Assembly (NCBI RefSeq): GCF_025685625.1
Contig: NZ_JAGSYI010000005.1
Location: forward strand, 1-64,000
DNA: 64,000 nt
Source: Acidicapsa acidisoli
GTDB taxonomy: Bacteria; Acidobacteriota; Terriglobia; Terriglobales; Acidobacteriaceae
Reading direction: 5' to 3'
The stretch's first letter is position 1; each line of letters starts with the position of its first letter. Both the position numbers and the translations under genes were made by a program. A model generated the notes under the pieces. The model ran no database searches. It saw only the letters and a program-made list of their open reading frames with translations, and was not told where the DNA came from. This document shows, in pieces, positions 10,463-31,739 of the stretch.

Positions 10463-10603
10463 ATCTAAGTCCGGCGACGGCAGTTCCACTCCGGATGCAC
10501 CGAACTTACGGCGCAGCACCACAAAGTGGGGACAGCGATTCCCTGCAATTACGGCAAGTTTTCTGCATTGAAACGAAGTAGCAACTTGACCTTGGAGCAC
10601 GAC

Positions 10604-11896: not shown

Positions 11897-11950
11897 TGCG
11901 TCTTACGGGTCGCGACGCACTCAACCGGTTTGGAATAGGCGTTGGCTGCG

Positions 11951-13135: not shown

Positions 13136-13252
13136 GGATTGAATCGGGTAAGAACATCCCCGATACTCTGAATTTACGTAACAATGTGACGCCTGAATAG
13201 CCGGCGATACGCGTAAGACAGTATAGGTTGGGCACTTCCCCGGAGGGTTGAA

Positions 13253-14353: not shown

Positions 14354-14455
14354 GCAATCGGGAAGACCGTTTTCAACCCTGGATTGCGGAAACGGAGAGA
14401 GCCGCAATCGTAATTGATCGAGCGTTCGAGTCACCTTCTCCAAGGATCGAAGCAT

Positions 14456-16684
14456 ATGTACATGACACCGACCAATAACCCGGAGCCCTATTCTCCCGTT
14501 GCGACCCAGCAGCCGCTCCGTCCTGCTTCGCGAACGAGTCCTTTCCGCATCAATGTGTTGAATAGCCTGCGGTTGCATCCCGTATCGTCCTTGCTTGTGA
14601 CATTGCTTGTGCTTGGCCTGGGACTTGCGGTAATTGCAAAGCACAAGCCTACTTATTCAGCCTCCAGTACTATCTACGTCTCGCCAACTCCAATCAAGAC
14701 GCTTGTCGATGACCGTGAACTCGAACGGCCGTACGAAGGTTATATTCAGGAAACCGTTCACGCCATCAACCGGTACGACATCCTCGCCGAGGCTATACGC
14801 AGAATGCCTCCTGGCACCTGGCAATTTCCGGGTGAGACAGAGCACAGCGCAGTGTTACGCCTGCAAGGGGCACTCGGGATCGAGCGTATAGAAAGAACCT
14901 ACCAGGTCGAAATCGGGATCTCGGGCTCCAGACCCGAGCACTTAGCCGACATCGTCAACGCCGTCACCGCAGTCTACATCGAGAAGGCTAAATCCGAGGA
15001 GTTTTACGGACGGGACGACCGCCTTGCGTCGCTCAAGGAAGAGCAGGCTCGAATTCAAAACGAAACCGATTCCTTGCTTCAGGAGCAGGACAAGATTACG
15101 AGGGCATTGGGAGTCGCATCCTTCACCGCCAAGGGATCAAGCCTTATCGATGATGAGAACGTCAAGATTCAAACAGCTCTGACAGCGGCCCACGAGCAAC
15201 GAATCCAAGCCGAGGCGCAACTGGAAGCAATCAATAGCGGCGAATCGTCAGCGCCTAATTCGGCGCTGAATGCAGCTGCCGATGACCTGATCGCCAGTGA
15301 CCCCAGCCTGGTGACGCTCAAAGCATCTCTTAGCCAGCACAAGGCGGACCTGGTAGATAAGCTGAGCGGTATGACGGAGAACCATCCGCAACGGAAACAG
15401 ACAGAAGAAGCTCTCGCACAGATCGAAAAAGAGCTTGCCGACATGCAGGCGAGTCTGCGGCGCCAGGCAGCCGCGCATCTTGAGCAGAAGCTGCGAACGC
15501 AGCTGAATCAGGCTCAGGTGGTCGAATCCAAGCTCAATGGCGACTTACAGCGTGGAACCAGCCAGGCCGCCAGCACAGCCCCCAAAATCCAGCGGGCCGC
15601 GGAAATACAGGCAGACCTTGACCGTCTGCAAGCGCGTCAAACGGCCGTAGACGATCGCATCAGCAATCTGGAACTGGAAAGCAGTTCCCCGGGTTCTGTT
15701 CATCTCTTCTCGCCCGCTATGACGCCTCTTGGCCCGGAGAAGAGTAGGGTTACTACTTTGCTCATTGCGATATTCCCCGTATCGATCATCATGGGAATTC
15801 TCATCGCAGTGATCCTTGACTTGTTCGATCCGCATATCTACACAGCTTCAGACGTCGAAGCCGTACTCGGGTTTGCCCCCATCGGCATGTTGTTCGATGA
15901 CCGGGAGGTCACACAGATAGTCTTTGACGAATGCGCTCTGCGCCTCGCCGCTGGAATCGATCATGCAGCCCGAATCAGCCGCGCTCGAACCTTCGTGATG
16001 ACCGGTGTAAACTCCGGAGCAGGCACAACTTCCATCATTGAAAATCTCGGAAGCATGCTTGCCAAACTCGGACGCAAAACGTTAGTAATCGATCCCTCTG
16101 GAAATTCCGAGCCTGTAGCCTTCATTACCCTGGGAACAGGCTTGCAAAAGCGCACTGTAAGCTTGCCCAACGAAGTCGACAACGGCGCTGATTCGGCGAC
16201 TGAATTGCAAAAGGCCAAGTCCAACCTCCAGGCTATTCCGACGAGAATCGCCCCCGTGACAAACCTCGTCTTTGAGAGCTTCCAGAACCTCTCCTCAGAG
16301 TACGATGTCGTGCTAATCGATGCGGCGCCAATTCTCATTTCGGCTGAGACCGAGTATCTTGCCCGAATGGCGGACGTGACAGTGTTGGTAGCCGAAGCAG
16401 GCAAAACCAAGAAGGCATGGCTTACGCGATCCGCTCGTTTACTGGAACGTATTGGCGTGGCCGGAGCCGCGGCAGTAGTCAACAAAGTTCACCCCGCCCG
16501 CGCCGAAGAATCTCTCAAGCATGATCTTCGCGAATTCGAGCTGCGCTCTGACAGAGTTAACCTCCAGGAGTGGTGGAAGCCGGAAAAGAATTCTGGTCAA
16601 ACCAAGCAGGCGTCCGTTGCTTCGTTTGACCAGGGAAATTCACGCGCAAACGAAGAGGATTCTGTATTTGCTCGTAACATTTAG
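14456..16684 (+). CDS. Wzz-type chain-length protein with degenerate BY-kinase domain
   Basis: A 742-residue polysaccharide co-polymerase. An N-terminal helix (about 43-61) and a second (LLIAIFPVSIIMGILIAVILDLF) bracket a long periplasmic coiled coil (about residues 180-400), as in PCP2a proteins such as Wzc. The cytoplasmic tail is a MinD/BY-kinase fold, but the P-loop reads VNSGAGTTSII, with Thr where the catalytic Lys is expected. Walker A' is LVIDPSG and Walker B is VVLIDAAPI. There is no C-terminal tyrosine cluster. The kinase is therefore probably inactive or nucleotide-sensing only. The ATG at 14456 has AAGGA upstream; a TTG at 14414 would add 14 residues. It is the last gene of the operon before a 1.1-kb gap. 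Confidence 0.88.
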   Translation: MYMTPTNNPEPYSPVATQQPLRPASRTSPFRINVLNSLRLHPVSSLLVTLLVLGLGLAVIAKHKPTYSASSTIYVSPTPIKTLVDDRELERPYEGYIQETVHAINRYDILAEAIRRMPPGTWQFPGETEHSAVLRLQGALGIERIERTYQVEIGISGSRPEHLADIVNAVTAVYIEKAKSEEFYGRDDRLASLKEEQARIQNETDSLLQEQDKITRALGVASFTAKGSSLIDDENVKIQTALTAAHEQRIQAEAQLEAINSGESSAPNSALNAAADDLIASDPSLVTLKASLSQHKADLVDKLSGMTENHPQRKQTEEALAQIEKELADMQASLRRQAAAHLEQKLRTQLNQAQVVESKLNGDLQRGTSQAASTAPKIQRAAEIQADLDRLQARQTAVDDRISNLELESSSPGSVHLFSPAMTPLGPEKSRVTTLLIAIFPVSIIMGILIAVILDLFDPHIYTASDVEAVLGFAPIGMLFDDREVTQIVFDECALRLAAGIDHAARISRARTFVMTGVNSGAGTTSIIENLGSMLAKLGRKTLVIDPSGNSEPVAFITLGTGLQKRTVSLPNEVDNGADSATELQKAKSNLQAIPTRIAPVTNLVFESFQNLSSEYDVVLIDAAPILISAETEYLARMADVTVLVAEAGKTKKAWLTRSARLLERIGVAGAAAVVNKVHPARAEESLKHDLREFELRSDRVNLQEWWKPEKNSGQTKQASVASFDQGNSRANEEDSVFARNI

Positions 16685-17832: not shown

Positions 17833-18507
17833 ATGACTACTTCCATTCTCTCTCCGCAGGTGCAGAATCACTCTGTCGAAAACTCCATTCAGCCGAAGAT
17901 AGAGGGGATGATTGACGAACTCTCTGCTTCCCTCCCCGATCCCAAGCAACTAACCAGCGACCAGCGCCGTGGGATCATCGCAAGATATACCGCCGTCCTG
18001 GAAGGAAACTTCATCTACTGGATGGCAGCCACCCTCATCTCGGTCAAGTCCGAGGGAGCGCGTCCGCATCTGCTCGAAAATCTGTTTGAGGAAGTGCGCG
18101 ACGCCCATCCCGTAATGCTGCGGAGATTTGCGATTGCCGCCCATGCTTTTCCCACGGACTCCGATGCACTCGTCGTAGATGAAGACCTGACAAAAGTTCG
18201 CAAGTTCCTGGGCAGACTCTCTGCAACGCAATCGTTGGCAACCATGGCCTTCTTTGAGGGATTCATTCAGAAGTTCATGGCCTACCTGGCTGATCTTGCG
18301 ACACTGCAGGGTTCCACCGATATGGAGTACACCGACGTGCATGGTGTGTGCGACATCGAACACACGCAGGGACTCTTTACCGCTCTCTCGGAAGAGATGG
18401 AAGTGAACCCACTCAATCCCGAGGCAGACATCTTCGAGGGCGTCTATCTTCTTCGCACCCTTGTGCAGACGATCGTCTTCGGGCAGACAGAAACACTCGC
18501 CGCCTGA
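17833..18507 (+). CDS. Heme-oxygenase-like putative diiron oxidase
   Basis: A 224-residue all-helical protein resembling the iron-containing redox enzymes of the heme-oxygenase-like fold (TenA/CADD/UndA/SznF superfamily). Likely metal ligands can be picked out: an Glu near 82-87 with H92 (ENLFEEVRDAH), E142 in AFFEGF, and H170-x3-D174-x2-H177 (HGVCDIEH). The spacing of the last trio is that of diiron members. Known members use O2 to oxidise fatty acids, amino acids or amines (alkene formation, N-oxygenation, carbon-scaffold cleavage). There is no transmembrane helix. The ATG at 17833 follows AAAGGCAGG; 40 further residues upstream lack similarity. It is first of ten codirectional genes. The substrate is unknown. 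Confidence 0.72.
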   Translation: MTTSILSPQVQNHSVENSIQPKIEGMIDELSASLPDPKQLTSDQRRGIIARYTAVLEGNFIYWMAATLISVKSEGARPHLLENLFEEVRDAHPVMLRRFAIAAHAFPTDSDALVVDEDLTKVRKFLGRLSATQSLATMAFFEGFIQKFMAYLADLATLQGSTDMEYTDVHGVCDIEHTQGLFTALSEEMEVNPLNPEADIFEGVYLLRTLVQTIVFGQTETLAA

Positions 18508-19353
18508 TTGAGTACAGAAGCAGCGAACTTGAAAATGCAACATCGACTGGAGCAAAATCTGTTCGAGCAAGCCCACTACTTCGAAGTTCCCGGGGCACAC
18601 CTGTATACGGTTCTGCATTCTGTGCCAGATCCAGTTGCTCGTGTGCTCCTGGTGGGTCCTTTTGCCTCGGAACGGCAAAACTCTTATGGCCCCTGGGTCC
18701 GGTGGGCACGATATCTGGCGGAAAGGCGCATCGAAGTCCTTCGATATGATTACCGCGGTATCGGTGAGAGCACCGGCGATTTTTGTGAAATGACTTTTGC
18801 GGACTGGCATGAAGACGTCCTGCTCCTCACGGAATGGCTGAACCGCCGGTCGCCTGCAGTGCCGCTCGTGTTGCATGGTCTTGAGATCGGAGCACTCTTG
18901 GCTGGCAAGGTCTTTGAGGCCGGAGTAGGAGACGCACTTCTCTTGTGGTCTCCACCTGCAAACGCAAACGCGGCCCTCCGCACGACACTTCTCCGTTGGA
19001 TGGGTCTTTTGCAATTGCTGAGGTACTCCGAAGAACGAAAAACAGCAGCCGATTGTATTCGGGAGTTAGAGCAAGGTTTGTCCATCGAGGTAGAAGGCTA
19101 TCTGTGGACGCCAAAACTCTGGCGCGACTCATTCAGCTTCGAACTGCCGTCGGCTATGGATAACGAAGAATCAGCAATTCAAAAGTATGGCCGCCCGGTG
19201 AAATCGATCGTCCTCGCCGCAAATGCTGCTCCCCTGGCTAAGAAAGGCATCGTCGGCGGCGGCGACGAAATCAAGGACCTTAGCTGGCTATACTCTGATA
19301 ACTTCGAATGGATGAACGGGGCCCTGACAAGTTTTGTAGGGGAGAGCCAGTGA
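18508..19353 (+). CDS. Alpha/beta-hydrolase-fold protein without a serine nucleophile
   Basis: A 281-residue alpha/beta-hydrolase relative most like 'hydrolase 2' of exosortase A loci. Family features are RVLLVGPFASERQ after the first strand, EVLRYDYRGIGESTGDF, and the nucleophile elbow VLHGLEIGALLAG. At the elbow the usual G-x-S-x-G Ser is Glu (residue 126), so classical hydrolysis is unlikely; exosortase-associated relatives also lack Ser (GLRLGA). The TTG start at 18508 abuts the preceding stop; an ATG at 18535 is an alternative, and neither has a strong ribosome site. It overlaps the next gene by four bases. A role in acyl or sugar-lipid transfer within the cluster is speculative. Confidence 0.7.
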   Translation: MSTEAANLKMQHRLEQNLFEQAHYFEVPGAHLYTVLHSVPDPVARVLLVGPFASERQNSYGPWVRWARYLAERRIEVLRYDYRGIGESTGDFCEMTFADWHEDVLLLTEWLNRRSPAVPLVLHGLEIGALLAGKVFEAGVGDALLLWSPPANANAALRTTLLRWMGLLQLLRYSEERKTAADCIRELEQGLSIEVEGYLWTPKLWRDSFSFELPSAMDNEESAIQKYGRPVKSIVLAANAAPLAKKGIVGGGDEIKDLSWLYSDNFEWMNGALTSFVGESQ

Positions 19354-20282
19354 TTGGAGCAATCGAATCTCGCGAGTTGTTTACACTCGACGGCCAAGAT
19401 GTTCGACTTCAGGGTACATACCACAGGCCTCGAAGCGGCGCAGCCGGTGCACGCTGCCAGAATCCAATCGGAGTGCTGTTCCTGAACTCCCTGTTTCTCC
19501 CGAGAACAGCAACCGGCGACTCGGCGGTCTATTGGGCCGAGTCATTCGCTGCGTGCGGCTACCCGGCATTTCGCATGGACTTGCCAGGACTGGGAGACTC
19601 CGATGCGCCCCTCAATACGGCCCTGCTTGATTTCATCAACGCAGGAGGCTACGGATCGATTGCTTCGGCTAAGATCAAGGAACTCGTTGAGCGCTTCGGA
19701 CTATCTGGAATTGTAATTGTCGGCCACTGTGCGGGCGCGGTGACTGCGCTCTTCGCAGCAGCAGCGAGCAAGGAGTGCAAGGGCGTGATACTTCTGGACC
19801 CCTACTTCTACTTGCCGCAGCAAATGAAAAAATCCAAGGCGTGGAAGCGGCTCGTCCGCTGGGCCGCAACCAGCGCTGTGGGCGGATCTCTCAGCAAAAT
19901 GTACGATTGGCTGAAAAATATCCGCCTGGCCCTCGGTGGAAGCAGGCCTCCGGGAAACGCTAATTTTGCGCTTCTACAGCGTTGGAGCGAAGTCGCAAAC
20001 AAGGGACTGCCGACCCTGCTTTTCAAGGCGCCTGGCCGAAAGAGTCCGGGAACGAAGCCAAGAGTCGGAGAATTCGACTACATCAAACATATCCAGGCCA
20101 TTGCAGCCCGCAAAAGCCAGGTTACCGTTCAGGTGATTGACAATACAGATCACTCGTTTGCGAATCGTGCTGGAAGAACCGCAGTTCGAGAGCAAGTTGA
20201 GCGCTGGCTGCGAGATTGTTTCCCGTTTTCGGAGTCAATTGAGTCCGAAACGATCGCCGAGGCGTCGTTAGCCGAAAAGTAA
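19350..20282 (+). CDS. Alpha/beta hydrolase with cysteine at the nucleophile elbow
   Basis: A 310-residue alpha/beta hydrolase. Core strands read GVLFLNSLFLPR and PAFRMDLPGLGDSDAP. The nucleophile elbow is VGHCAGA, with Cys127 in the place of Ser, and a C-terminal DNTDHSFAN supplies the expected His. Cys-nucleophile members include dienelactone hydrolases and some thioesterase/acyltransferase domains, so acyl transfer or thioester cleavage on the downstream acyl carrier protein is plausible. The start is GTG at 19350, overlapping the previous stop (GTGA) with GGGGAGAG upstream, a clear sign of translational coupling. It ends 77 bases before the ACP gene. Confidence 0.8.
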   Translation: MIGAIESRELFTLDGQDVRLQGTYHRPRSGAAGARCQNPIGVLFLNSLFLPRTATGDSAVYWAESFAACGYPAFRMDLPGLGDSDAPLNTALLDFINAGGYGSIASAKIKELVERFGLSGIVIVGHCAGAVTALFAAAASKECKGVILLDPYFYLPQQMKKSKAWKRLVRWAATSAVGGSLSKMYDWLKNIRLALGGSRPPGNANFALLQRWSEVANKGLPTLLFKAPGRKSPGTKPRVGEFDYIKHIQAIAARKSQVTVQVIDNTDHSFANRAGRTAVREQVERWLRDCFPFSESIESETIAEASLAEK

Positions 20283-20359
20283 CAAAATGGACTATTGAGA
20301 ACCAAGCCCAGTGCCTGTAAGGTAGAACTAACTTCGGAGAATATGAAATCCAATCGCCT

Positions 20360-20605
20360 ATGAACATTCGCTCTGAAATTTCAGAACAATTCCAACAGGT
20401 CGCCCTTGAATATGATAAGCGGCTCGCACCCCTGACCGACCGTTTAACGCTGTTGGACTCCGGGCTCGACTCGCTCTGTTTCGCGATCATTGTCGCAAGG
20501 CTTGAGAGGGATCTCGGAATCGATCCTTTCAGCGACTCGGAAGATGCCCTGTTTCCTCTGACCTTCGGTGAATTCGTCCAATTCTACGAGAATGCCGCAA
20601 AATAA
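20360..20605 (+). CDS. Acyl carrier protein
   Basis: An 81-residue stand-alone carrier protein. The four-helix pattern and the 4'-phosphopantetheine site LDSGLDSLCFA (Ser38) are clear. The acidic helix 2 continues IVARLERDLGIDPF. It differs from the housekeeping fatty-acid AcpP, which would carry a D-S-L-D motif and sit beside fabF. It resembles the carrier proteins that travel with AMP-forming ligases in exosortase/EPS and natural-product loci. Its stop overlaps the ligase start by 14 bases. It probably holds the acyl or aminoacyl intermediate of the cluster as a thioester. Confidence 0.9.
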   Translation: MNIRSEISEQFQQVALEYDKRLAPLTDRLTLLDSGLDSLCFAIIVARLERDLGIDPFSDSEDALFPLTFGEFVQFYENAAK

Positions 20606-21989
20606 CCTCACATCTCTATGGAGCACGGTCAGCGCCGCAGACAATCTGTCTGCGCGCTTTCTATTCAGTGCACAAGCCAATGTCGCCCTGAGCGAACTCC
20701 ACGAAAGCTCTGCGCTCTATGGCCATAGCAATGAGCTCCGCGGTCGATCGGTGCTCATTGCGACGATCAGCCAACTCGCCGCAAGTCTGGCCCTCATCGA
20801 GCTCGATGGTGTCGCTCGGCGCGTAGTCCTGTATCCTCCCGATTTGCCTCTCGGCTACCTGCCATTTGTGATAGAGTCCGCCGAAGTAGACGCGATCGTC
20901 TCCGACGGCAAGACGGTCGAGCTAGGCAATCCACGCGTAGAACGCTTCATCCCGTGCAACGGAGAACTTACACCTGGACTAAGCGATCGAACCGCGCAAT
21001 ATCAGACCGAGTGGATACTTCTCACCTCCGGCACATCGGGACTGCCAAAGCTCGTCGCCCACACCTTGTTCAGCCTTGCCGGCGCGATTGAACCACAGAA
21101 CTCCGGCGCGAGTCCCGTCGTCTGGAGTACTTTCTACGACATCCGCCGTTATGGCGGACTGCAGATTTTCCTGCGTGCGCTTCTTACCGGCACCTCGCTC
21201 GTGCTCTCAAGCGCCCAGGAGTCAACAGCGGATTTTCTGGAGAGGGCAAGCTCTCACGGCGTTACACATATTTCTGGAACGCCCTCGCATTGGCGCCGTG
21301 CGTTGATGAGTCCCGCGATCCATCAGTTGGCGCCAGAGTATGTCCGCTTGTCTGGAGAGATCGCCGATCAGTCTATCCTTAACAACCTTCGTCTCGTTTA
21401 CCCGCAGGCTCGAATCGCCCACGCATTCGCGACCACGGAAGCTGGTGTTGCCTTTGACGTGAACGACGGGCTCGCCGGATTCCCTGCCAGCGTAGTCGCC
21501 CATACTCCGAACGTAGAAATGAAGATGGTAGATTGTTCCCTCTGGATCCGTTCCGATCGAACTGCAAGCCGATATCTGGGTGGCCATGCCCCCATTCTTC
21601 GCAATGCAGACGGCTTCGTCGATACCGGCGACCTGCTCGAACTGCGAGACGGCCGGTACTACTTCGTTGGCCGACGCGACGGAGTGATTAACATTGGCGG
21701 TCTGAAGGTCTATCCCGAAGAAGTGGAGACAGTCATCAACCGCCATCCCGCCGTCCACATGTCGCTCGTCAAGACCAAGAAGAATCCTGTCACAGGAGCC
21801 ATCGTCGTCGCAGACGTAGTTCTCAAAGCATCAGAGCACGCAGCCAACCCAGACCTGCGCGAGCTTCAGCATGAGATTCTCCTGCTCTGCCGCGACGCGC
21901 TCTCATCCCACAAGATTCCCGCCGCGATCAACTTTGTAACCTCTCTCGCGGTCGCTGAATCAGGAAAGCTCACTCGACGCAATGCGTAA
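20592..21989 (+). CDS. AMP-forming ligase (acyl/aminoacyl-ACP adenylation enzyme)
   Basis: A 465-residue member of the ANL adenylating superfamily. The P-loop is LLTSGTSGLPKLVAHT. The A5-like motif is FATTEAGVAF, the A7/A8 hinge DTGDLLELRDGRYYFVGRRDGVINIGGLKVYPEEVE, and the catalytic Lys lies near the end (ESGKLTRR). It is shorter than acyl-CoA synthetases and resembles the ACP-loading ligases of exosortase A loci. It starts inside the ACP gene (ATG 20592) and its end overlaps the next start by eight bases. It most likely activates a carboxylate with ATP and loads it on the adjacent ACP; the substrate is not predictable by eye. Confidence 0.85.
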   Translation: MPQNNLTSLWSTVSAADNLSARFLFSAQANVALSELHESSALYGHSNELRGRSVLIATISQLAASLALIELDGVARRVVLYPPDLPLGYLPFVIESAEVDAIVSDGKTVELGNPRVERFIPCNGELTPGLSDRTAQYQTEWILLTSGTSGLPKLVAHTLFSLAGAIEPQNSGASPVVWSTFYDIRRYGGLQIFLRALLTGTSLVLSSAQESTADFLERASSHGVTHISGTPSHWRRALMSPAIHQLAPEYVRLSGEIADQSILNNLRLVYPQARIAHAFATTEAGVAFDVNDGLAGFPASVVAHTPNVEMKMVDCSLWIRSDRTASRYLGGHAPILRNADGFVDTGDLLELRDGRYYFVGRRDGVINIGGLKVYPEEVETVINRHPAVHMSLVKTKKNPVTGAIVVADVVLKASEHAANPDLRELQHEILLLCRDALSSHKIPAAINFVTSLAVAESGKLTRRNA

Positions 21990-22716
21990 CGTAATCGTCA
22001 CCGGCGGCAGCCGAGGATTAGGCCTGGGCATTGCCCGGAAGCTCACAGGCGCGGGCTACTCGGTCATCGCTGTCGCCCGCAAAGAGAATAGCGAGCTCGT
22101 GGCCGCAATGCAGGAGGCCAATCTCTCAAATCCAGGCTCCTTTCACTTTGTTCCCTCTGATCTCACCGCAATCGAAGAGATCCCGAATCTGATCAAGACG
22201 ATCCGGAAGACCTTTGGTGCCATCTACGGGCTAGTCAACAATGCAGGCATGAGTTTTGACGGCTCGTTAGCCCTCATGCCCCTATCACAGATCGAGCAAC
22301 TTGTGCGCATGAATACCGTCTCGCCCATGGTCATCACCAAGCATGTTGTCCGTTCGATGATGGCTGACGGCGGTGGACGCATCGTGAATGTATCCTCCAT
22401 AACCGCCTTCACCGGCTACAGCGGTCTCTCGGTTTACAGCGCCACGAAAGCATCTCTCCTCGGATTTTCCCGGTCCTTGGCGCGAGAGGTGGGCCGCATG
22501 GGAATCAACGTAAATTCCATCGCTCCCGGCTTCGTCGATACCGACATGACTCAGGGCATGAAAGAGGAGCAGCGCCAGCAAATCGAACGCCGTAGCGCCC
22601 TCAAGCGCTTGGCAGAGGTCGACGATGTGGCGAACGCGGTTGAATTCCTTCTGAGCGACAAAGCGAAGAACATCACCGGGACGGTCTTGACCGTCGACGC
22701 AGGAAGCACTGCTTGA
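21982..22716 (+). CDS. FabG-like short-chain dehydrogenase/reductase
   Basis: A 244-residue classical SDR close to 3-oxoacyl-ACP reductase. It shows the cofactor loop VTGGSRGLGLG, LVNNAG, the catalytic Ser139, Tyr152 and Lys156 (VNVSSI, VYSATKAS), and SIAPGFVDTDMTQGM typical of FabG. An Arg after the glycine loop suggests NADPH. It overlaps the ligase upstream and, by a TTGA junction, the synthetase downstream, so it is cotranslated with them. A beta-ketoacyl or alcohol/ketone step on the carrier-bound intermediate is the likely job. No ketosynthase is encoded nearby, so a standard elongation cycle is not supported. Confidence 0.88.
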   Translation: MRNVIVTGGSRGLGLGIARKLTGAGYSVIAVARKENSELVAAMQEANLSNPGSFHFVPSDLTAIEEIPNLIKTIRKTFGAIYGLVNNAGMSFDGSLALMPLSQIEQLVRMNTVSPMVITKHVVRSMMADGGGRIVNVSSITAFTGYSGLSVYSATKASLLGFSRSLAREVGRMGINVNSIAPGFVDTDMTQGMKEEQRQQIERRSALKRLAEVDDVANAVEFLLSDKAKNITGTVLTVDAGSTA

Positions 22717-24521
22717 TCGAGTCTCAAAATACAACCCCAACCCAGACAAATGTTTCCGCTGCCAAAGCATGGCTGCGCGCTCTTGAGCTGACCGCGCCGA
22801 TTCCTCGCAATCCGGATCGAATCCTGCCCGTCGTCCTAGCCGAGATAGCAGCGAAATCCGGCGATCAACCGGCACTTCTCTCCGACCGCGAAAGCTTAAC
22901 CTACGCTGAGCTCACCGCCCGATCGAATCAATACGCCCGATGGGCACTCCACCAAGGGCTCGCCAAAGGCGAAGTCGTCGGCTTGTTGATGACCAACCGG
23001 CCTGAGTTCTTTGCCATCTGGCTCGGCATCACCAGCATTGGCGGAATCGTCGCGTTGCTCAACACAAATCTCGTCGGTCCATCCCTGGCGCATTGCGTCA
23101 ACATCGTCGGCCTCAAGCATCTCATCGCGTCAAGTGAGTTCGTCGATTCGCTGACGGCGGTCATCCCGCAACTGACCGGTGCCCCAGCCATCTGGACCCA
23201 CGGCGAAAACCCCGCCAGCTTCCCGCGCATAGATCTCGAGATCCAGCAACAATCCGGCGAAAGCCTGCGCGATCATGAACGGCGTCCGATCACTATCGAA
23301 GACCGCGCCCTGTACATCTTCACCTCCGGCACCACAGGCCTACCCAAAGCGGCCAACATCAGCCACGCCCGCGTCATGCAATGGAGTCATTGGTTTGCCG
23401 GCATGATGGATACGCAGCCATCGGACCGCATGTACAACTGCCTGCCCATGTATCACAGCGTCGGCGGCGTGCAGGTGCCGGGCGCGATTCTGGTCGCAGG
23501 CGGCACGGTCATCATCCGCGAAAAATTCTCGGCCAGTCAGTTCTGGAACGACATCGTCCGCTGGGAATGCACGATCTTCCAGTACATCGGCGAACTCTGC
23601 CGCTACCTTCTGCACGCCACACCTGCCGCCCATCCCGTCGAACACCGGATTCGCATGGCCTGTGGCAACGGCCTGGCCGCCGAAGTCTGGGATAGCTTCA
23701 AAGATCGCTTCCGCATTCCTCAGATCTTTGAGTTCTATGCCGCAACCGAAGGCGGAGTAGCGCTCTTCAACGTTGAGGGCAAGCGAGGCGCCATCGGACA
23801 CATCCCAGGCTATCTCATCCATCGCTTCTCACCCCCATTGGTCAAATTCGATGTTGATAAAGGCGAGCCAGTACGCAACGATCAAGGGTCCTGCATCCGT
23901 TGTGGCCCAAACGAAGTCGGAGAAGCCATCGGCAAAGTAATAGAAGACCCCGCAAGCGTAGGCAGCCGCTTCGAGGGCTACACCGACAAGCAAGCATCTG
24001 AAAAGAAGATCCTCCGCGATGTCTTTACGCCCGGCGACGTCTTTGTTCGAACCGGCGACCTCATGCGGAAGGACGAAAAGGGGTTCTTCTACTTCGTCGA
24101 CCGCATCGGCGACACCTTCCGCTGGAAGGGCGAAAACGTCTCGACCTCCGAAGTCGCCGAGGTTCTCTCCGCTTATCCAGGCGTCAAGCACGTAAACGTC
24201 TACGGAGTATCCATTCCGGGCACCGAAGGGCGAATCGGCATGGCGGCCATTGTCGCCGAGAATCTCATCGACCTCACCGACCTGCGAAATCATCTGCTCA
24301 ACACCCTTCCCGGCTACGCTCGCCCCGCCTTTCTCAGAATCCGAGAGGATGTCGAAGTAACGGGAACATTCAAGTATTCCAAAACCGATCTGGTGCGCCA
24401 GGGATACGATCCAGCCGTCACCACCGACGCCATCTACTTTGACAATCCGGAGTCAAAGTCCTTCGACCGGCTAGACCAATCGCTGTTCGACCGCATCCAG
24501 AGCGGGAAAATACAACTGTAA
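22713..24521 (+). CDS. Long/very-long-chain acyl-CoA synthetase (FATP/FadD6 type)
   Basis: A 602-residue fatty-acid:CoA ligase of the FATP subgroup. Motifs include LYIFTSGTTGLPKAANISHAR, YNCLPMYHSVGG, FYAATEGGVALFN, VRTGDLMRKDEKGFFYFVDRIGDTFRWKGENVSTSEV, and the FATP-type end GTFKYSKTDLVRQGYDP. These enzymes activate long-chain fatty acids to acyl-AMP and acyl-CoA at the membrane. It begins with TTG at 22713 inside the SDR stop, with AGGAAG upstream. It is the second AMP-forming enzyme in the cluster. One may load ACP and the other CoA, suggesting two different acyl inputs. Confidence 0.9.
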   Translation: MIESQNTTPTQTNVSAAKAWLRALELTAPIPRNPDRILPVVLAEIAAKSGDQPALLSDRESLTYAELTARSNQYARWALHQGLAKGEVVGLLMTNRPEFFAIWLGITSIGGIVALLNTNLVGPSLAHCVNIVGLKHLIASSEFVDSLTAVIPQLTGAPAIWTHGENPASFPRIDLEIQQQSGESLRDHERRPITIEDRALYIFTSGTTGLPKAANISHARVMQWSHWFAGMMDTQPSDRMYNCLPMYHSVGGVQVPGAILVAGGTVIIREKFSASQFWNDIVRWECTIFQYIGELCRYLLHATPAAHPVEHRIRMACGNGLAAEVWDSFKDRFRIPQIFEFYAATEGGVALFNVEGKRGAIGHIPGYLIHRFSPPLVKFDVDKGEPVRNDQGSCIRCGPNEVGEAIGKVIEDPASVGSRFEGYTDKQASEKKILRDVFTPGDVFVRTGDLMRKDEKGFFYFVDRIGDTFRWKGENVSTSEVAEVLSAYPGVKHVNVYGVSIPGTEGRIGMAAIVAENLIDLTDLRNHLLNTLPGYARPAFLRIREDVEVTGTFKYSKTDLVRQGYDPAVTTDAIYFDNPESKSFDRLDQSLFDRIQSGKIQL

Positions 24522-24646
24522 GTTCGGGCCCCGATCTGGCATTCTGAAGTCAGATCTCCCGTCGAGTCGCGCAGGAATGACTCCGTTGCTCGTAACAATT
24601 GCGAAGCTAGTTGCCTGTTTCGCCGCTGACAATAGGAGTATTCGAA

Positions 24647-26098
24647 ATGAAGATCGACGAAGTCAGGGACGAATTCGCAAGGGTGCAAGCGCAGGTCGCA
24701 AACGGCCCCATCGTCCCCCACGTGACAGCCGATGAGATTCGCAGCTATCTCACCTTGCGCTATGACTTCAAGCAATCGCTGCCACTCGAAGAAGTCGTCG
24801 CCGATGTCGAACAGATGCTTCAAACCTGGCAAGTCCAGGTCACCCATCCCCGCTATTTCGGCCTCTTCAACCCAAGCGTAACCCTCGCCTCGGTTCTCGG
24901 CGACCTGCTCGTCGCCATGTACAACTCGCAGCTCGCAAATTGGCGAACGTCCCCAGCCGCAAATGAAATCGAAAAGCACACGCTCGGTTGGCTCACCGAT
25001 AAATTCGGCCTTCCACCCGAATCCATCGCAACCTTCACGAGCGGCGGAACAGAAGCGAACCTCTCGGCAATCGTAGTCGCCTTGACCCAGGCCTTCCCAA
25101 GCTATGGAGAACACGGCCTTCGCAACCTTCCCGCAGCGCCCACCATCTACCTCACCCACGAAGCACACAACGGCTACAACAAGATTGCGCATCTGACCGG
25201 CCTTGGCAGACAAGCCCTTCGCATCGTCAAAACCGATCCCAATCTGAAGATGGATCTCGCCGATCTTGAGCGCCTGGTCACAGAAGACCGGAAGAACGGA
25301 TTCGCCCCCTTTATGGTCATCGGCACAGCCGGAACCACCGCGGCTGGAATCATCGATCCCCTCGAAGAGATAGCTCGATTCTGCCGAACCGAGAACCTTT
25401 GGTTTCATGCAGACGCAGCATGGGGTGGCGCAGCCATCCTTTCGCCAACACTCCGGCAGCACCTCGCTGGTATTGAATCCGCCGACTCGATCACTTGTGA
25501 CGCGCACAAGTGGCTCTCCGTTCCAATGGGTTGCGGCATGTTCTTCTGCCGGTATCCCGACCGCGTCGCCGAAGCCTTCCGCGCCGACATCTCCTACATG
25601 CCGAAGAAGACCGATCTGACCGTCACCGACCCCTTGATGGCCTCCATCCAGTGGTCGCGCCGCTTCATCGGCCTCAAACTCTTCCTGGCCATCGCCCACC
25701 ACGGCGAATCCGGCCAGATCGAAATGATCGAGCATCAAACCCGCATGGGCCACGTCCTTCGAGAAGCGCTCTCAACATCAGGATGGCGGATCGTCAATGC
25801 AACGCCATTCCCGCTCGTCTGCTTCACGCGCGACGGCCTGTCTCACACCAGCTTCCTCGCATCGATGCGAGACCGTCAGATCGCCTGGATGTCCGAAGCA
25901 CACGTCGCAGGAGTCCACGTACTGCGCGCATGTATCACCAGTTTCAGAACGACCGAGGCCGAGATTCACTGGGTCGTCGACGAGATGAATCGTCTCTTCG
26001 AGCAAGAGTCCGGCCAGAAGTCAGGCCAGATCAATTCGGACCAAACGATGGCTGTACCTCCCGAGTCCAGCCGAGTCCAGGAGCCTATAAAGCAATGA
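24647..26098 (+). CDS. Group II PLP-dependent decarboxylase
   Basis: A 483-residue fold-type I decarboxylase in the family of aromatic-amino-acid, glutamate and 2,4-diaminobutyrate decarboxylases. Visible are the substrate-loop region VTHPRYFGLFNPS, FTSGGTEANLSA (phosphate binding), THEAHNGYNKI with the PLP-stacking His, FHADAAWGG (PLP pyridine Asp) and the Schiff-base Lys288 in CDAHKWLSVPMGCGM. It would turn an amino acid into an amine; the substrate cannot be named. AGGAG precedes the ATG. A gap of about 125 bases separates it from the synthetase and could hold an internal promoter. Its stop overlaps the MetY-like start (ATGA). It differs from the fold-III decarboxylase of exosortase loci. 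Confidence 0.87.
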   Translation: MKIDEVRDEFARVQAQVANGPIVPHVTADEIRSYLTLRYDFKQSLPLEEVVADVEQMLQTWQVQVTHPRYFGLFNPSVTLASVLGDLLVAMYNSQLANWRTSPAANEIEKHTLGWLTDKFGLPPESIATFTSGGTEANLSAIVVALTQAFPSYGEHGLRNLPAAPTIYLTHEAHNGYNKIAHLTGLGRQALRIVKTDPNLKMDLADLERLVTEDRKNGFAPFMVIGTAGTTAAGIIDPLEEIARFCRTENLWFHADAAWGGAAILSPTLRQHLAGIESADSITCDAHKWLSVPMGCGMFFCRYPDRVAEAFRADISYMPKKTDLTVTDPLMASIQWSRRFIGLKLFLAIAHHGESGQIEMIEHQTRMGHVLREALSTSGWRIVNATPFPLVCFTRDGLSHTSFLASMRDRQIAWMSEAHVAGVHVLRACITSFRTTEAEIHWVVDEMNRLFEQESGQKSGQINSDQTMAVPPESSRVQEPIKQ

Positions 26099-27369
26099 AG
26101 CCGGAAACAATCGCAATTCACGGCGGATACGAATACGATCCGACAACCAAAGCCGTAGCCGTGCCCATATATCAAACGGTTTCCTACGCATTCGACAGCG
26201 CCGATCATGCGGCGGCACTCTTCAACCTCGAAGTAGAAGGATTTCGCTACACACGCATCTCCAACCCAACCACGGCAGTCCTCGAGCGTCGCGTAGCCGC
26301 CCTCGAAGGTGGACTAGAAGCTCTTTGCGTCGCCAGCGGACAGACCGCTGTCTACTACGCCCTGCTCAATGTCGCTGAACTGGGAAGCAACATCATTTCC
26401 GTTCCCCAACTCTACGGCACCACGCACACCATGTTCGCGCATCTATTGCCGAGCCAGGGCGTGCACGTTCGATTTGCAGAGTCGGACCATCCAGACGCGC
26501 TGGAAAAGCTGATCGACGACAAAACCCGCGCCATTTACTGCGAGAGCGTGGGCAATCCAGCAGGGAACATCTGCGACATCGAGAAACTGGCGCAACTGGC
26601 TCATCGTCACGGCTTGCCTCTCATCGTCGATAACACGGTAGCCTCGCCCATCCTGCTGCGGCCCATCGAGTACGGCGCGGACATCGTCGTCCACTCTCTC
26701 ACCAAGTTCCTCGGCGGCCACGGCACCACGCTGGGAGGCGCAATCGTCGACAGCGGCAACTTCCCCTGGAAAGAGCACGCCGCACGATTCCCAATGTTCA
26801 GTCAGCCGGACGCCTCCTATCACGACCTCGTCTATACCGAGCACTATGGCCGAGCCGCCTTCATGGGGCGCTGCCGCAGCGTCTATCAGCGAACCATCGG
26901 CGCGGCGCTCTCGCCCATGAGCGCCTTCCTCCTTCTTCAGGGCATCGAAACCGTTGCATTGCGTCTAGACCGCCACGTCGAAAACGGCCGAAAAGTAGCC
27001 GAATTCCTCCGCGACGATCCCAGGATCGAATGGGTCAACTACGCCGGATTCCCATCCAGCCCCTATTACAATCTCGCGCAAAAATACCTCGGCGGTCGAG
27101 CCTGCTCTCTGATGACCGTAGGCCTCAAAGGAGGCTTCGAAGCCGCCGTCAAATTCCATGACGCGCTCAATCTCGTAACGCGCCTCGTCAATCTTGGGGA
27201 TGCCAAATCTCTAGCCTGCCATCCCGCGTCCACAACCCATCGGCAAATGTCGCCCGAAGAACAACTCATCGCCGGTGTGCGGCCAGAGATGATCCGCCTC
27301 AGCATCGGAATCGAACACAGCGACGACATCATCGCCGATCTGGATCAGGCGCTGAACGCAGCCATCTAG
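26095..27369 (+). CDS. O-acyl-homoserine sulfhydrylase-like PLP enzyme (MetY family)
   Basis: A 424-residue Cys/Met-metabolism PLP enzyme (fold type I). It has GFRYTRISNPTTAVLE, the MetY-like ASGQTA in place of the SGM of cystathionine synthases, SVPQLYGTTHTMF, VDNTVASPILLRP (PLP Asp) and the Schiff-base Lys204 in VHSLTKFLGGHGT. MetY replaces the O-acyl group of acyl-homoserine with sulfide to make homocysteine. Coupling to the decarboxylase (ATGA overlap) is odd for ordinary methionine synthesis and suggests gamma-substitution with another nucleophile is also possible. Followed after 56 bases by a MetA-like acyltransferase that could supply its substrate. Confidence 0.88.
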   Translation: MKPETIAIHGGYEYDPTTKAVAVPIYQTVSYAFDSADHAAALFNLEVEGFRYTRISNPTTAVLERRVAALEGGLEALCVASGQTAVYYALLNVAELGSNIISVPQLYGTTHTMFAHLLPSQGVHVRFAESDHPDALEKLIDDKTRAIYCESVGNPAGNICDIEKLAQLAHRHGLPLIVDNTVASPILLRPIEYGADIVVHSLTKFLGGHGTTLGGAIVDSGNFPWKEHAARFPMFSQPDASYHDLVYTEHYGRAAFMGRCRSVYQRTIGAALSPMSAFLLLQGIETVALRLDRHVENGRKVAEFLRDDPRIEWVNYAGFPSSPYYNLAQKYLGGRACSLMTVGLKGGFEAAVKFHDALNLVTRLVNLGDAKSLACHPASTTHRQMSPEEQLIAGVRPEMIRLSIGIEHSDDIIADLDQALNAAI

Positions 27370-27425
27370 TCCATCTAGCCACTTAGCTTTCCCGAGCGGC
27401 TTAAATCAACTTCCGAGAGACCAAC

Positions 27426-28475
27426 ATGCCGGCATATTTGAATTCCATTCCGTCGAGCAAGCACCTCAATCTCCGCTGCCTTAATATCGGCTTGATCAAC
27501 AACATGCCCGACGGCGCTCTAGAAGCCACCGAGCGTCAGTTTCTCTCGCTCCTCAATGCAGCCTCTGATGCAACGCCCGAGGGCATCACGGTCCGCCTCT
27601 CGCTCTACTCATTACCCGGCATCCCGCGCAATGAAATCGGCGCGAGCCGCATTCGCAACTTCTACACAAGCACCGAAACGTTTCTCGACACGCATTTCGA
27701 CGGGCTCATAGTCACTGGCCGCGAACCCCTGACGCCAAATTTGCAAGACGAACCCTATTGGGACAGCTTCACAAAAGTTCTGGAGTGGGCCCGCGAAAAC
27801 ACGCATTCGACCGTCTGGTCCTGTCTTGCCGCGCACGCCGCAGCCCTCCACATGGATGGCGTCACCCGAGTCAGAAGCCCTCACAAACATTGCGGTGTCT
27901 TCGATTGCGCGCAACTGGCATCACACACACTCACCGAAGGCACACCCGCGCGTTTCAGCCTGCCGCACTCCAGATGGAACGGCCTGCCGGAAGACGCATT
28001 AACCGCTTCCGGATATAACGTGCTCACGCGATCCTCCGATGTGGGCGTGGACACATTCGTGAAGCAGTTCAAGAGCCTTTTCCTCTTCTTTCAGGGCCAT
28101 CCCGAGTACGAATCCAACACGCTCCTGTTGGAATATCGCAGAGACGTCGGGCGCTTTCTCCGGCAAGAAACGAAGATCTACCCATTAATGCCGCGGAACT
28201 ACTTCGCCCCCGATACCGTCCAAGCCCTGACGGCGCTGCAGCGGAAAGCCGAGAACAGCCCGGATGAGAAATTCCTGGCAGAAGTTTCAGACATTCTGGA
28301 AAAGCTAGGCATCGAAAACACCTGGGCTCCTACCGCACAATGCATCTATAAAAACTGGCTGCAATACATACTCGCCCAGAAAAACCTGAAAAATCTGGAC
28401 AGACAGCACGCCGACGAAGCAAATCCATTGCACGGAGAGACGGCAACGTTGGCCTCCGCGGCCAGCCTGCCTTAG
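27426..28475 (+). CDS. Homoserine O-acyltransferase, MetA-like
   Basis: A 349-residue member of the MetA/HTS family, a glutamine-amidotransferase-like fold that acylates homoserine from succinyl- or acetyl-CoA. It carries IGLINNMPDGALEATERQF, the nucleophile Cys133 in WSCLAAHAA, HSRWNGLPE, and the His225/Glu227 pair in FFQGHPEYE. The loop that selects acyl donor in classic MetA is changed (VTGREPLTPNLQDEPYW), so donor choice cannot be inferred. It lies 56 bases after the MetY-like gene and ends the cluster; the following gene converges. Together the pair could make homocysteine, or feed an acyl-homoserine into a special pathway with the coupled decarboxylase. Confidence 0.85.
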   Translation: MPAYLNSIPSSKHLNLRCLNIGLINNMPDGALEATERQFLSLLNAASDATPEGITVRLSLYSLPGIPRNEIGASRIRNFYTSTETFLDTHFDGLIVTGREPLTPNLQDEPYWDSFTKVLEWARENTHSTVWSCLAAHAAALHMDGVTRVRSPHKHCGVFDCAQLASHTLTEGTPARFSLPHSRWNGLPEDALTASGYNVLTRSSDVGVDTFVKQFKSLFLFFQGHPEYESNTLLLEYRRDVGRFLRQETKIYPLMPRNYFAPDTVQALTALQRKAENSPDEKFLAEVSDILEKLGIENTWAPTAQCIYKNWLQYILAQKNLKNLDRQHADEANPLHGETATLASAASLP

Positions 28476-28484: not shown

Positions 28485-29681
28485 CTAGTTTCCAGCCCGC
28501 GCTGGCGGCTCGTTTTCCAGCGCCATCACCGCATACGCCGTAGCGGCATCGCTCATAAATCGGCCCGTATCACTTTGCAAATCGCTCTGACCGTTCAGCG
28601 ATCCAGTCCGCCAGCTCCCATCGCTTCCCTGGTGCCGCTCAAGCCAATCCAGAGCCCGGTTCAACGATGGATCATGGCTGTTTCTCCCGGATTCCTCCAG
28701 CACCACCGCCACCAGCCCCGTCGCGTACCCATCACTCTCCAGCGGCTTCACGATCTGGCCGAATTGCTCTTTGAGTTGTTCCTTGATCCGTTTCAGCTCG
28801 GTGCGTTCCATCGCACTTTGGGGATCCAGGGAAAAGAGACTCCATCCGCCATCCGGCAGTTGCAAATTTTGAACGGTGTCAAGCAGACTCTTTCGCTCGC
28901 CCGCATCCAACATCTCTGGTGCCTTCGTCGACAACCACAAAACATACAGCTTGTTCACCAAGGGCTGTTCCGCATAATGCCGCCGCAAATATTGCCGCAG
29001 ACTCTCCAAATGCTTCTGGACCTCCGGCTCGCTCGCATATCCATCCGGAGCATTTTCTGCTTCCAGCATCAACCACGTCGCCCCCTGATAGGCCGACTCA
29101 GCCGACTCCCACGGCGCCAGATGGAAATCCTGCCACTTCCATCCACCGGCATCTTCGCCTGCCACTTCCTGTAATGCCCATGCTTCTCTGAACGCACTAC
29201 GCGTCACCGGACGGAGACGGCCATTCTGTGCGTCATAGTTGGCCAGAATCACTGCATTCACAACAGCTTCCGTAGCATGAGACTGCGCCGTCTTGCCCGG
29301 CCCATACTCGGCATCCGAGTAATACGGAACCATCTCAGACCAGCCGGCCACCCGCTTTTCAACATTCTCCATCAGGATCTTCTGCGGCTCTGGCATAGCT
29401 GACTCGTGCAACTCCTGGCCAAGCGAGCGACGCATCATCGCGTAAGGCAATACCGTATGGCAAGAGACGCAGACTGTCCCATGATCCATCTTCGCGGCCG
29501 GCCATTCCTGCCACCAGACCTCACGGTGATCCAGATACTCCGCCGCCGCCTTCGGGCTCCAGTTTGTCAGGTAACGAATCGAAGAAGCGGCAGACGCGCG
29601 CGCTTCCGTTACCCTCCACCAGCCGATCCCCGCCAACGAACCGGCCAGCACCACGCAGAGGCACAAAGCGATACGTCTCAT
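28485..29681 (-). CDS. Exported protein with heme-c motif and terpene-cyclase-like repeats
   Basis: A 398-residue protein of unusual architecture. Residues 1-30 form a signal peptide or membrane anchor (ALCLCVVLAGSLAGIGWW). A single heme-c motif, CVSCH (residues 71-75), follows. The rest is helical with prenyltransferase/squalene-cyclase-type repeats: QLPDGGWSLF and HQGSDGSWRTGSLNG resemble QW motifs. No D-x-D-D-type acid motif of hopene cyclase is evident, so it is probably not an active cyclase. The periplasm is the likely site, where heme would be attached. It starts at ATG 29681, with GAGGAG seven bases upstream, rather than the GTG five codons earlier. It converges with the MetA-like gene, ten bases apart. 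Function unknown. Confidence 0.75.
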   Translation of the reverse strand: MRRIALCLCVVLAGSLAGIGWWRVTEARASAASSIRYLTNWSPKAAAEYLDHREVWWQEWPAAKMDHGTVCVSCHTVLPYAMMRRSLGQELHESAMPEPQKILMENVEKRVAGWSEMVPYYSDAEYGPGKTAQSHATEAVVNAVILANYDAQNGRLRPVTRSAFREAWALQEVAGEDAGGWKWQDFHLAPWESAESAYQGATWLMLEAENAPDGYASEPEVQKHLESLRQYLRRHYAEQPLVNKLYVLWLSTKAPEMLDAGERKSLLDTVQNLQLPDGGWSLFSLDPQSAMERTELKRIKEQLKEQFGQIVKPLESDGYATGLVAVVLEESGRNSHDPSLNRALDWLERHQGSDGSWRTGSLNGQSDLQSDTGRFMSDAATAYAVMALENEPPARAGN

Positions 29682-30141
29682 CGCAGCTCTCCTCACTCCA
29701 CGCGCTTCGCAGTTCCATCATTCCCGCCGCCACGGATTCGGACATGCGGATAAAGACGGAAGAACGAGGAGCGATTCGTAGCATTCAGCGGGGGCCTGAA
29801 GCACCGATTGCCCAATTTTACCAGTAGAAGAAAAATAGTATCCCCGATAATAATCGAGCTACATTTGGCGCTGTCCTTCCCGACAGCCGTTCGCTAAAAT
29901 AAGTTCCAGTAAAGCAATCGAGCAGCACATGCCTTTGAGCCGCATGCACCCTCAGAGGGCAGTGTATGAGATTGTCCAAAGCTCGCTAAAACCAAGCTCT
30001 TCCACCGAAGTCGCGCGTGGAGTGATTGTCGAATGGTCTCGAACTTTCGCTCTACTCCATTGCGAATCATGATCTCAGAGAAGATTCGAATCCTCTTGCG
30101 TCGCCGTTGCGTTCACCTTGGAATCGGAAGTGTCTGACTGC
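29682..30141. other. Intergenic region between divergent genes
   Basis: About 460 bases between the heme-c/cyclase-like gene (leftward) and the GT2 gene (rightward). It should hold both promoters. A 46-codon open frame (29930-30070, starting MPLSRMHPQ) has only a weak GAGCAG ribosome site, so I do not call it a gene. No repeats stand out. Confidence 0.4.
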
Positions 30142-31155: not shown

Positions 31156-31159
31156 AGCT

Positions 31160-31690
31160 TCAATTCCTGTGATTTCGTCGATCGAGCAGGGCTCCCATAC
31201 ACGTAATCAAAGCAAGGCCGATCCATACCAGACTCACTGCCATCACGTATCCAACCATGCGATAGAAAATCATGTCCACGTAGTGGTAAGAGATCGACTC
31301 GCAACACACCAGCCCCACGGAAAGCACCGTACCAGTCACCGCCATCGCAAGGCCCGGCCTTCCTCGAAATCTGTAGCAGATCCAAATAGTAGCGATTGCC
31401 AGGACGCCAAACAGCACCAACAGGGCCAGCACTTGCGGAGGTCGCCGCTCACCGTAGACCCCCAGATTCATTGCGTCCTGTCCAAAGAAGTCATGAATCT
31501 TCCACCGCCAGTCAAATGCCATGTCCAGCAGAAGAAAGAGTTGCACAGCGGCCAACAGGGCAAATAATCTTCCTCGTTGGCCACTCTTATGGCAACTTAC
31601 CCATCTGACTGCGCAAGCCGTACAGGAAGCTGCGTAGGCAGCCATCCCAGTCATCCGGGTAGGCGAAAACCACTCCAGACCAGCAATCAT
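31160..31690 (-). CDS. Small integral membrane protein of unknown function
   Basis: A 176-residue protein with four predicted membrane helices: LFALLAAVQLFLLLDMAF, VLALLVLFGVLAIATIWICY, LAMAVTGTVLSVGLVCC and VMAVSLVWIGLALITCMGALL. The loop between helices 1 and 2 contains DWRWKIHDFFG. I do not recognise the family. It is divergent from the Wzy-like polymerase and converges with the GT2 gene, ending only five bases from it. The start is uncertain (ATG 31690 or in-frame ATGs 12-15 codons later), and the first 40 residues contain three Cys. Confidence 0.7.
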   Translation of the reverse strand: MIAGLEWFSPTRMTGMAAYAASCTACAVRWVSCHKSGQRGRLFALLAAVQLFLLLDMAFDWRWKIHDFFGQDAMNLGVYGERRPPQVLALLVLFGVLAIATIWICYRFRGRPGLAMAVTGTVLSVGLVCCESISYHYVDMIFYRMVGYVMAVSLVWIGLALITCMGALLDRRNHRN

Positions 31691-31739
31691 AGTTTATGGT
31701 GTACGTAATGGCGTGTTCTGTCGAGTCCAGGGAGCCCTG

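Follow-up and report, generated by a model that had tools for sequence, protein, structure and literature searches.

An eight-gene core joining a heme-oxygenase-like oxidase, an acyl carrier protein arm and dedicated MetY and MetA enzymes in Acidobacteriota and Rokubacteria

A ten-gene stretch of Acidicapsa acidisoli and its recurring core

The window analyzed here, 64,000 nucleotides of the 7.1 Mb genome of Acidicapsa acidisoli (Acidobacteriaceae, Terriglobia; contig NZ_JAGSYI010000005.1, positions 1 to 64,000), contains a stretch on the + strand (17833-28475) that is filled by ten open reading frames (ORFs) and opens with the gene for a heme-oxygenase-like (HO-like) diiron oxidase (HDO). Ten codirectional genes had been claimed here by a first-pass annotation made from the sequence alone; all are present, and Pfam and NCBIfam profile searches agree with the families it named:

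17833-18507, + strand: HO-like diiron oxidase, 224 aa (PF14518, 36.3 bits, Pfam cut-off 28.9)
18508-19353, + strand: hydA, optional alpha/beta hydrolase whose nucleophile-site residue (Glu in the window) varies (PF12146, Hydrolase_4; TTG start uncertain)
19308-20282, + strand: hydB, alpha/beta hydrolase with a Cys nucleophile, optional (PF00561/PF12697, Abhydrolase_1/6)
20360-20605, + strand: acyl carrier protein (ACP) (PF00550, PP-binding, 21.0, barely above the cut-off of 20.8)
20568-21989, + strand: LIG1, adenylating ligase, presumed ACP loader (PF00501 and PF13193, AMP-binding; GTG start uncertain)
21982-22716, + strand: FabG-like short-chain dehydrogenase/reductase (SDR) (PF13561/PF00106)
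22713-24521, + strand: FATP-like long-chain acyl-CoA synthetase (NF006134, PRK08279, 745.8 bits, cut-off 625)
24647-26098, + strand: group II pyridoxal phosphate (PLP) decarboxylase (PLPdc), 483 aa (PF00282, Pyridoxal_deC, 227.1 bits)
26095-27369, + strand: MetY-like PLP enzyme, a dedicated paralogue (TIGR01326, 596.4, cut-off 495.1)
27426-28475, + strand: MetA-like homoserine acyltransferase (HTS) (PF04204, over its cut-off; NF003776, 377.4, cut-off 358)

Five of the nine junctions overlap (hydA/hydB by 46 bp, ACP/LIG1 by 38, LIG1/SDR by 8, SDR/FATP by 4 and PLPdc/MetY by 4), the oxidase and hydA genes abut, and gaps of 77, 125 and 56 bp separate hydB from ACP, FATP from PLPdc and MetY from MetA. 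The decarboxylase start was set by hand at ATG 24647, its residue numbering being counted from 24644. Neither a tRNA nor an Rfam family at gathering score was found within the window. The ten-gene set is not a chance assembly, because the same set recurs in other genomes, and eight of its genes, encoding the HO-like oxidase, ACP, LIG1, SDR, FATP, PLPdc, MetY and MetA, make up a core.

The HO-like protein is missing from 60 relatives examined; among 399 class genomes it was found in ten, the source genome counted. In all ten the oxidase lies with the other seven core genes within about 12 kb. A sample of the phylum yielded it in 4 of 396 genomes, namely the source genome, G242, G600, which has all eight core genes, and G679, where the match is weak (E 2.6e-5) and only a generic SDR is nearby. 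The second collection, a GTDB scan with one genome per species, gave 51 HO loci from acidobacterial isolates and metagenome-assembled genomes (MAGs) and from Rokubacteria MAGs, with a single MAG filed under Pirellulales and a single fragment filed under Formivibrio as outliers. MAG labels may be wrong in places: the HO proteins of L116 ('Acidobacteria') and L117 ('Rokubacteriota') are 99.5% identical. Twenty-six of the 51 loci, six of them in genomes already among the class genomes, extend 9 kb or more past HO on its downstream side, the remaining 25 being shorter, and the complete eight-gene set is found in 21 of the 26. Four others are without one partner: FATP in L107, and MetA in L091, L111 and L123, whose stretches stop within MetY or less than 1 kb past it.

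Gene order is less constant than gene content. MetA stands between FATP and PLPdc in L106, L112, L115, L121 and L122, FATP is on the opposite strand in L110, L111 and L123, HO lies within the set in L104 and L125, and MetA precedes HO in L119; linkage survives the changes of order or strand in L104, L110, L119, L123 and L125. When distance matrices of the core proteins were compared, with L116 and L127 set aside, none of 500 permutations reached the observed correlation in 27 of the 28 gene pairs, and 14 of 500 did so for PLPdc-MetA (r 0.28-0.79). This agreement shows joint descent, part of it plain host descent. LIG1 homologues at E<=1e-60 are similarly confined, occurring in 11 of the 399 class genomes: the ten cluster genomes and G102, described below. 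The earlier reading of the stretch as a single pathway has held up, since homologues are clustered rather than scattered (10/10 HO-positive class genomes; 21/26 loci), and MetY and MetA, checked for separation from the other eight genes, stay linked to them. We regard a single pathway as very probable.

Searched against a plasmid collection, the HO protein gave no match. Named isolates carry the cluster, which opens a direct way to look for its product: Granulicella sp. L46, Terracidiphilus gabretensis and Acidipila rosea, the contig of the last stopping behind the decarboxylase gene. Eight assemblies have two or three HO loci whose HO proteins are 62-79% identical (L108/L117, L111/L113, L107/L123, L114/L118, L120/L124, L105/L116, L088/L096 and L100/L103/L130, with L130 a fragment); these are either parallel clusters with different products or binning errors. 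Core genes are split in two pieces in L101 (Granulicella sp. L46, 10915-12376), L111 (LIG1 and FATP), L113 (SDR) and L130 (SDR and MetA), pointing to frameshifts or assembly errors.

Core enzymes and the optional hydrolases

The oxidase was modelled with AlphaFold2 at a pLDDT of 92.1 from an alignment of 47 rows that leaves aside L116, L127 and three short fragments, and the model adopts the seven-helix HO fold. Alignment with VIA-align placed CADD (1rcw) closest (Z 19.3, root-mean-square deviation 2.5 over 197 residues), followed by HrmI (Z 18.4), UndA (16.9), PolF (16.0), BesC (15.3) and SznF (13.6). Because metal-free TenA/PqqC relatives of the same fold score Z 13-17, the modelled fold alone is no proof of a metal enzyme. 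The candidate ligands E57, E87, H92, E142, H170, D174 and H177, the last three forming H-x3-D-x2-H, do not vary in any of the 51 sequences compared (51/51). At the sequence level, three His and four carboxylates are thus invariant, each of the carboxylates being a candidate for metal binding. Sections of a review of the family describe HDO ligand sets of three His and three or four carboxylates (PMC13108848), and the candidate set matches this 3H/3C or 3H/4C pattern. A Foldseek search with the model returned nothing at E<=0.001 (best match HrmI, 2.3e-3), and a PDB sequence search with the HO profile returned no chain at E<=1. Because no PDB chain matches by sequence, the oxidase is, judged by the structures solved so far, an HDO branch of its own.

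The MetY and MetA of the cluster are dedicated copies and not housekeeping enzymes, because a metY-metX pair exists elsewhere in the genome: at G000:C2:75093 another MetY, 55% identical, is followed by a MetX-type gene (named from sequence), so the cluster MetY is not the sole MetY of its genome. Identity among 30 cluster MetY proteins is 70-91%, compared with 49-58% between them and 13 housekeeping MetY. In a tree rooted on the housekeeping copies, 'monophyly' of the cluster proteins means only that they part from those copies (support 0.289), and the identity ranges are the firmer result. The two sets have 104 invariant columns in common and differ at 37 positions, every one of them fixed to 90% or more within either set; two of the 37 sit in an N-terminal gap, and several adjoin Tyr52, Tyr107, Asn154 and His376 and presumably line the active site. 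Such differences would fit a changed nucleophile. HTS-type MetA is present in 10/10 cluster genomes, as a single copy inside the cluster, and in 0/16 genomes without HO; the MetA of the window is the only PF04204 match in its genome.

Catalytic residues are intact in this branch and in ACP, LIG1 and SDR. MetY, which fits its family model, keeps Lys204 (PLP), Tyr52, Arg54, Tyr107 and Asp179 in 30/30 sequences, and PLPdc keeps Lys289, His175 and Asp257 in 30/30. In MetA, Cys133 (24/25), His225 (25/25) and Glu227 (24/25) presumably form the Cys-His-Glu catalytic set. The DSL serine of ACP is found in 45/45 sequences, the C-terminal Lys467 of LIG1 in 41/41, and Tyr152 and Lys156 of SDR in 40/41 and 41/41. 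By these residues the cluster enzymes look active. The A4 region of LIG1 was considered as a guide to its substrate and gave no safe reading.

LIG1 homologues also occur on Alphaproteobacterial plasmids, and five of the 14 matched records were examined. In all five an ACP, a ligase and an SDR stand side by side, the ligase and SDR being homologous to those of the cluster (35-42% and 40-47% identity); with the window ACP as query a sequence match was obtained in L147, L148 and L152, with a relative as query in L151, and in L153 the ACP is annotated. On the Qingshengfaniella and Haematobacter plasmids the trio follows an annotated acyltransferase, hexapeptide-type as judged from relatives and from its sequence, and glycosyltransferases are near. 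The Azospirillum plasmids (L152, L153) combine the three genes with an alpha/beta hydrolase and a ketoacyl synthase III between pseI and flagellin, likely as a flagellin-glycan acylation module; this hydrolase has a Ser elbow and no detectable relation to hydA or hydB. No match to HO, PLPdc, MetY or MetA was found in the five records, where the FATP query merely cross-matches the ligase weakly.

The two hydrolases are optional to the cluster, being found in the window, in L031 and L032, and in 6 of the 51 GTDB-scan loci (3 of the 26 well-covered ones). Their nucleophile elbows in the window are GLEIG (hydA) and GHCAG (hydB). The Glu that the first-pass annotation had seen at the hydA nucleophile site is present there; as a conserved feature it fails, the residue being Glu in six, Gly in two and Ala in one of nine sequences including the window, while the Cys of the hydB GxCxG elbow is kept in 9/9. 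Because the elbow Glu varies among homologues, hydA is probably a non-catalytic partner. An analogy with exosortase-A loci, also drawn earlier, is not supported: the hydrolases fall far under the NCBIfam cut-offs of TIGR03100 (52.0 vs 168.45) and TIGR03101 (75.6 vs 202.75) and are rare among the loci, and exosortase (PF09721) is similarly frequent in genomes with the cluster (7/10) and without it (10/16). In those seven genomes it is found on a contig without the cluster or over 1 Mb away from it, the locus itself being without one. The association was therefore rejected.

Variable genes and polysaccharide surroundings

In the window, the cluster lies amid polysaccharide genes, which we treat as context and not as core:

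10526-16684, + strand: WecG-type and family 2 glycosyltransferases, Poly_export and, as the last gene, a weakly matched exopolysaccharide (EPS) chain-length/kinase protein (TIGR01007, 53.2, cut-off 108.05)
30118-33173, + strand: family 2 glycosyltransferase and a gene (31713-33173) without a Pfam or NCBIfam match

A protein encoded at 28485-29696 on the - strand has a weak match to the C-terminal part of squalene-hopene cyclase, and its homologues adjoin clusters L095 and L103. Elsewhere, 89 upstream-flank ORFs pooled from 16 loci contained nine of glycosyltransferase group 1, four of Bac_transf and four of Asn_synthase, families outside the 25 listed for 89 control ORFs flanking housekeeping metY. 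The flank scan took 89 of 148 ORFs: it covered 16 of the 22 loci, was confined to the upstream side and passed over several ORFs that were long or doubtful. The control scan took 89 of 112, leaving out metY, metX and others; with 25 families listed for each, a single-member control family may be unseen. Recurring neighbors include sugar-transferase genes (5 loci) and FemAB-like genes (3 loci). Every further gene family is limited to at most 7 of 52 loci; the set thus has no constant companion for export, regulation or resistance.

Several less frequent genes adjoin the core. A cytochrome P450-type gene is in or beside four clusters (L091:2884-4206, L092:8173-9549, L108:10995-12329 and L084:19965-20591), a class III aminotransferase adjoins five (L106:18352-19758, L088, L092, L121 and L130), and an aldehyde dehydrogenase adjoins three (L101:18805-20280, L115:10528-11475 and L093); the latter two kinds could convert an amine to an acid. 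These counts come from blastp grouping, with few members named by profile (the P450 in L091 and L108), and all three were too few to be accepted as core members. Many hydrolase-free loci have a gene of the hexapeptide, GNAT-like or acyltransferase-3 kind close to the core, and L032 has both hydrolases and such a gene. More than one acyltransferase of the searched kinds occurs in L032, L098, L110, L111 and L123. The idea of one offloading acyltransferase per cluster was not upheld, 6 of the 26 loci being without the searched kinds within 1.5 kb. A gene of about 373 aa between MetA and PLPdc has no Pfam match; 'GNAT-like' is a reading of its sequence, its model being unusable (pLDDT 53.6).

A variant may exist in G102 (L131, G102:C120), where SDR, FATP, MetY, MetA and LIG1 are accompanied by a luciferase-like monooxygenase (TIGR04020, 394.8 bits, cut-off 244.45) and an aminotransferase whose best match, BhcA, is below cut-off. 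HO was not listed for this genome in the 399-genome class search, assuming the same sample as in the LIG1 search, and another oxygenase may here replace HO. The extra genes of L131 lie at 1521-2612 and 7121-8287; the locus also holds a second, partial MetA and has its FATP in two frames.

Proposed pathway, alternatives and known relatives

The chemistry of the families is well defined. MetA enzymes activate the homoserine hydroxyl, MetY enzymes perform gamma-replacement, PLPdc enzymes decarboxylate, LIG1-type ligases load ACP, SDRs carry out redox steps, FATP enzymes form acyl-CoA, and HDOs catalyze O2-dependent oxidation. As the best explanation we propose, with somewhat less than even confidence, that the cluster encodes a dedicated pathway of two arms leading to an unusual acylated, homoserine-derived compound. 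In the amine arm, MetA would acylate homoserine, or a related compound, on its hydroxyl, MetY would swap the acyl group for a nucleophile, most likely a thiol, and PLPdc would convert the MetY product into an amine. In the acyl arm, LIG1 would activate an acid and load it onto ACP, and SDR would tune the oxidation level of the ACP-bound group. The HO-like diiron enzyme would oxidize either the amine or the chain carried by ACP, a long-chain acyl-CoA would come from the FATP-like enzyme, and a variable acyltransferase (the Cys alpha/beta hydrolase pair in the window; hexapeptide, GNAT-like or acyltransferase-3 enzymes elsewhere) would join the arms or put the product on a surface sugar, perhaps of cell-surface polysaccharide. 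The reactions, their order, the substrates, the thiol, the product and its destination are what we infer, and the odds of this chemical reading of the cluster are a little under even.

Several observations weigh against the two-armed pathway. First, partners are sometimes missing: L117, like the near-identical L116, is without ACP and SDR in its stretch, L107 is without FATP, and the contig of G102 (13.7 kb, from a genome 81% complete) is without HO and PLPdc. Second, L094, L106, L108, L117, L119 and L130 show no acyltransferase within 1.5 kb among the kinds searched for; in L088 the only match is an outlying one, and in L101 it is a partial hexapeptide match. Finally, loading of the decarboxylated product by LIG1 would need a second carboxylate, and the arms may be arranged otherwise; the weakest points are the source of the carboxylate for ACP loading, the arm served by the HDO and the enzyme that joins the arms.

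Most of these steps recur in an alternative in which the destination is fixed, the ACP-bound, HDO-modified acyl or aminoacyl group being placed on a sugar of the neighboring exopolysaccharide and the amine arm supplying a precursor; the ACP-ligase-SDR sets of flagellin-glycosylation islands may act in a comparable way. The polysaccharide genes around the window cluster favor such glycan decoration, as do the glycosyltransferase group 1, Bac_transf and Asn_synthase genes that are unlisted in the metY-locus control, the ACP-ligase-SDR trio near glycosyltransferases in Haematobacter, Qingshengfaniella and Azospirillum (there beside pseI and flagellin), and the Aeromonas islands with an ACP, a 3-oxoacyl-ACP reductase and an AMP-dependent synthetase described in parts of PMC7874193. 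However, the glycan genes were counted over pooled flanks, from the chosen 89 of 148 ORFs, and not locus by locus, which falls short of placing each cluster in a glycan locus, and the trio loci are without HO, MetY, MetA and PLPdc. We consider this alternative rather unlikely. Less likely again is a diffusible natural product, for which the HDO would use an unbound amino acid or amine derived from homoserine, by N-oxygenation, desaturation or C-C cleavage as known HDOs do, and the acyl arm would do no more than cap it. It would agree with the nearest folds (CADD, HrmI and UndA), with the fatty- and amino-acid substrates to which sections of PMC13108848 tie most characterized HDOs, and with the two or three HO loci in eight assemblies (62-79% identity), as diversifying products might show, but the flanks are enriched in glycan genes, and no additional family that might serve export, regulation or resistance exceeds 7 of 52 loci. 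Sequence cannot separate a glycan-bound from a diffusible destination.

It is highly improbable that the stretch holds two unrelated neighbors, a methionine-biosynthesis pair happening to follow an acyl cluster. MetY and MetA do score over the family cut-offs of methionine enzymes, but the housekeeping metY-metX is elsewhere in the genome, MetA tracks the cluster (10/10 genomes with it, 0/16 without), and both genes are retained through rearrangements in acidobacterial and Rokubacteria loci. We also venture a bolder and distinctly unlikely idea, that soil Acidobacteriota and Rokubacteria modify their surface or lipids in a way that forms a class of its own. An HDO acting on an ACP-bound chain and a private homoserine-to-amine branch (MetA-MetY-decarboxylase), brought together in evolution, would yield an oxidized, probably sulfur-containing acyl amine, put on exopolysaccharide by interchangeable acyltransferases.

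Acidobacteriota and Rokubacteria are abundant soil groups whose chemistry is little known. The parts of the cluster are of known kinds; their combination and the HDO branch are apparently new, at least to us. Among open-licence papers no description of the eight-gene set was found: the relevant parts of PMC13185094 and PMC13061610 concern different diiron pathways, and homoserine and heme oxygenase do not occur in the accessible sections of PMC10875860 and PMC7298704. The oxidase resembles the HDOs CADD, HrmI, UndA, PolF, BesC and SznF in fold and in its invariant His/carboxylate set. In the HDO review, 'homoserine' appears nowhere in the main text and 'carrier protein' once, in a reference title, and an HDO acting on an ACP-bound chain would, if true, be a substrate type not met in those sections (PMC13108848).

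Among the closest parallels are the Fub7, LolC/LolD and BesB/BesC pathways, with FUB7 a PDB relative of the cluster MetY and BesC one of the oxidase. In these pathways a MetY-type enzyme works on a gamma-leaving group; LolC is paired with a decarboxylase, and BesC is an HDO. None of these pathways is known to have the ACP arm or a MetA in its cluster. Exosortase-A (XrtA) EPS loci have a similar functional list, with hydrolases 1 and 2, an ACP, a ligase and a PLP decarboxylase, and a distant hydrolase similarity; they differ in that the cluster hydrolases are far below the family cut-offs and no exosortase is nearby, and the decarboxylase of XrtA loci presumably belongs to a different PLP fold than the cluster PLPdc. 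On the acyl side, the group II flagellin-glycosylation islands of Aeromonas are reported to bring the same kinds of ACP, ligase and SDR together, a likeness by description and not by sequence (PMC7874193). The Alphaproteobacterial loci share the adjacent ACP, ligase and SDR and the nearby glycan genes, but are without HO, PLPdc, MetY and MetA, and Azospirillum adds a ketoacyl synthase III. By this analogy, the acyl arm looks like a glycan-acylation module of a portable kind, and the additions to it would be HO, FATP and a MetA-MetY-PLPdc branch.

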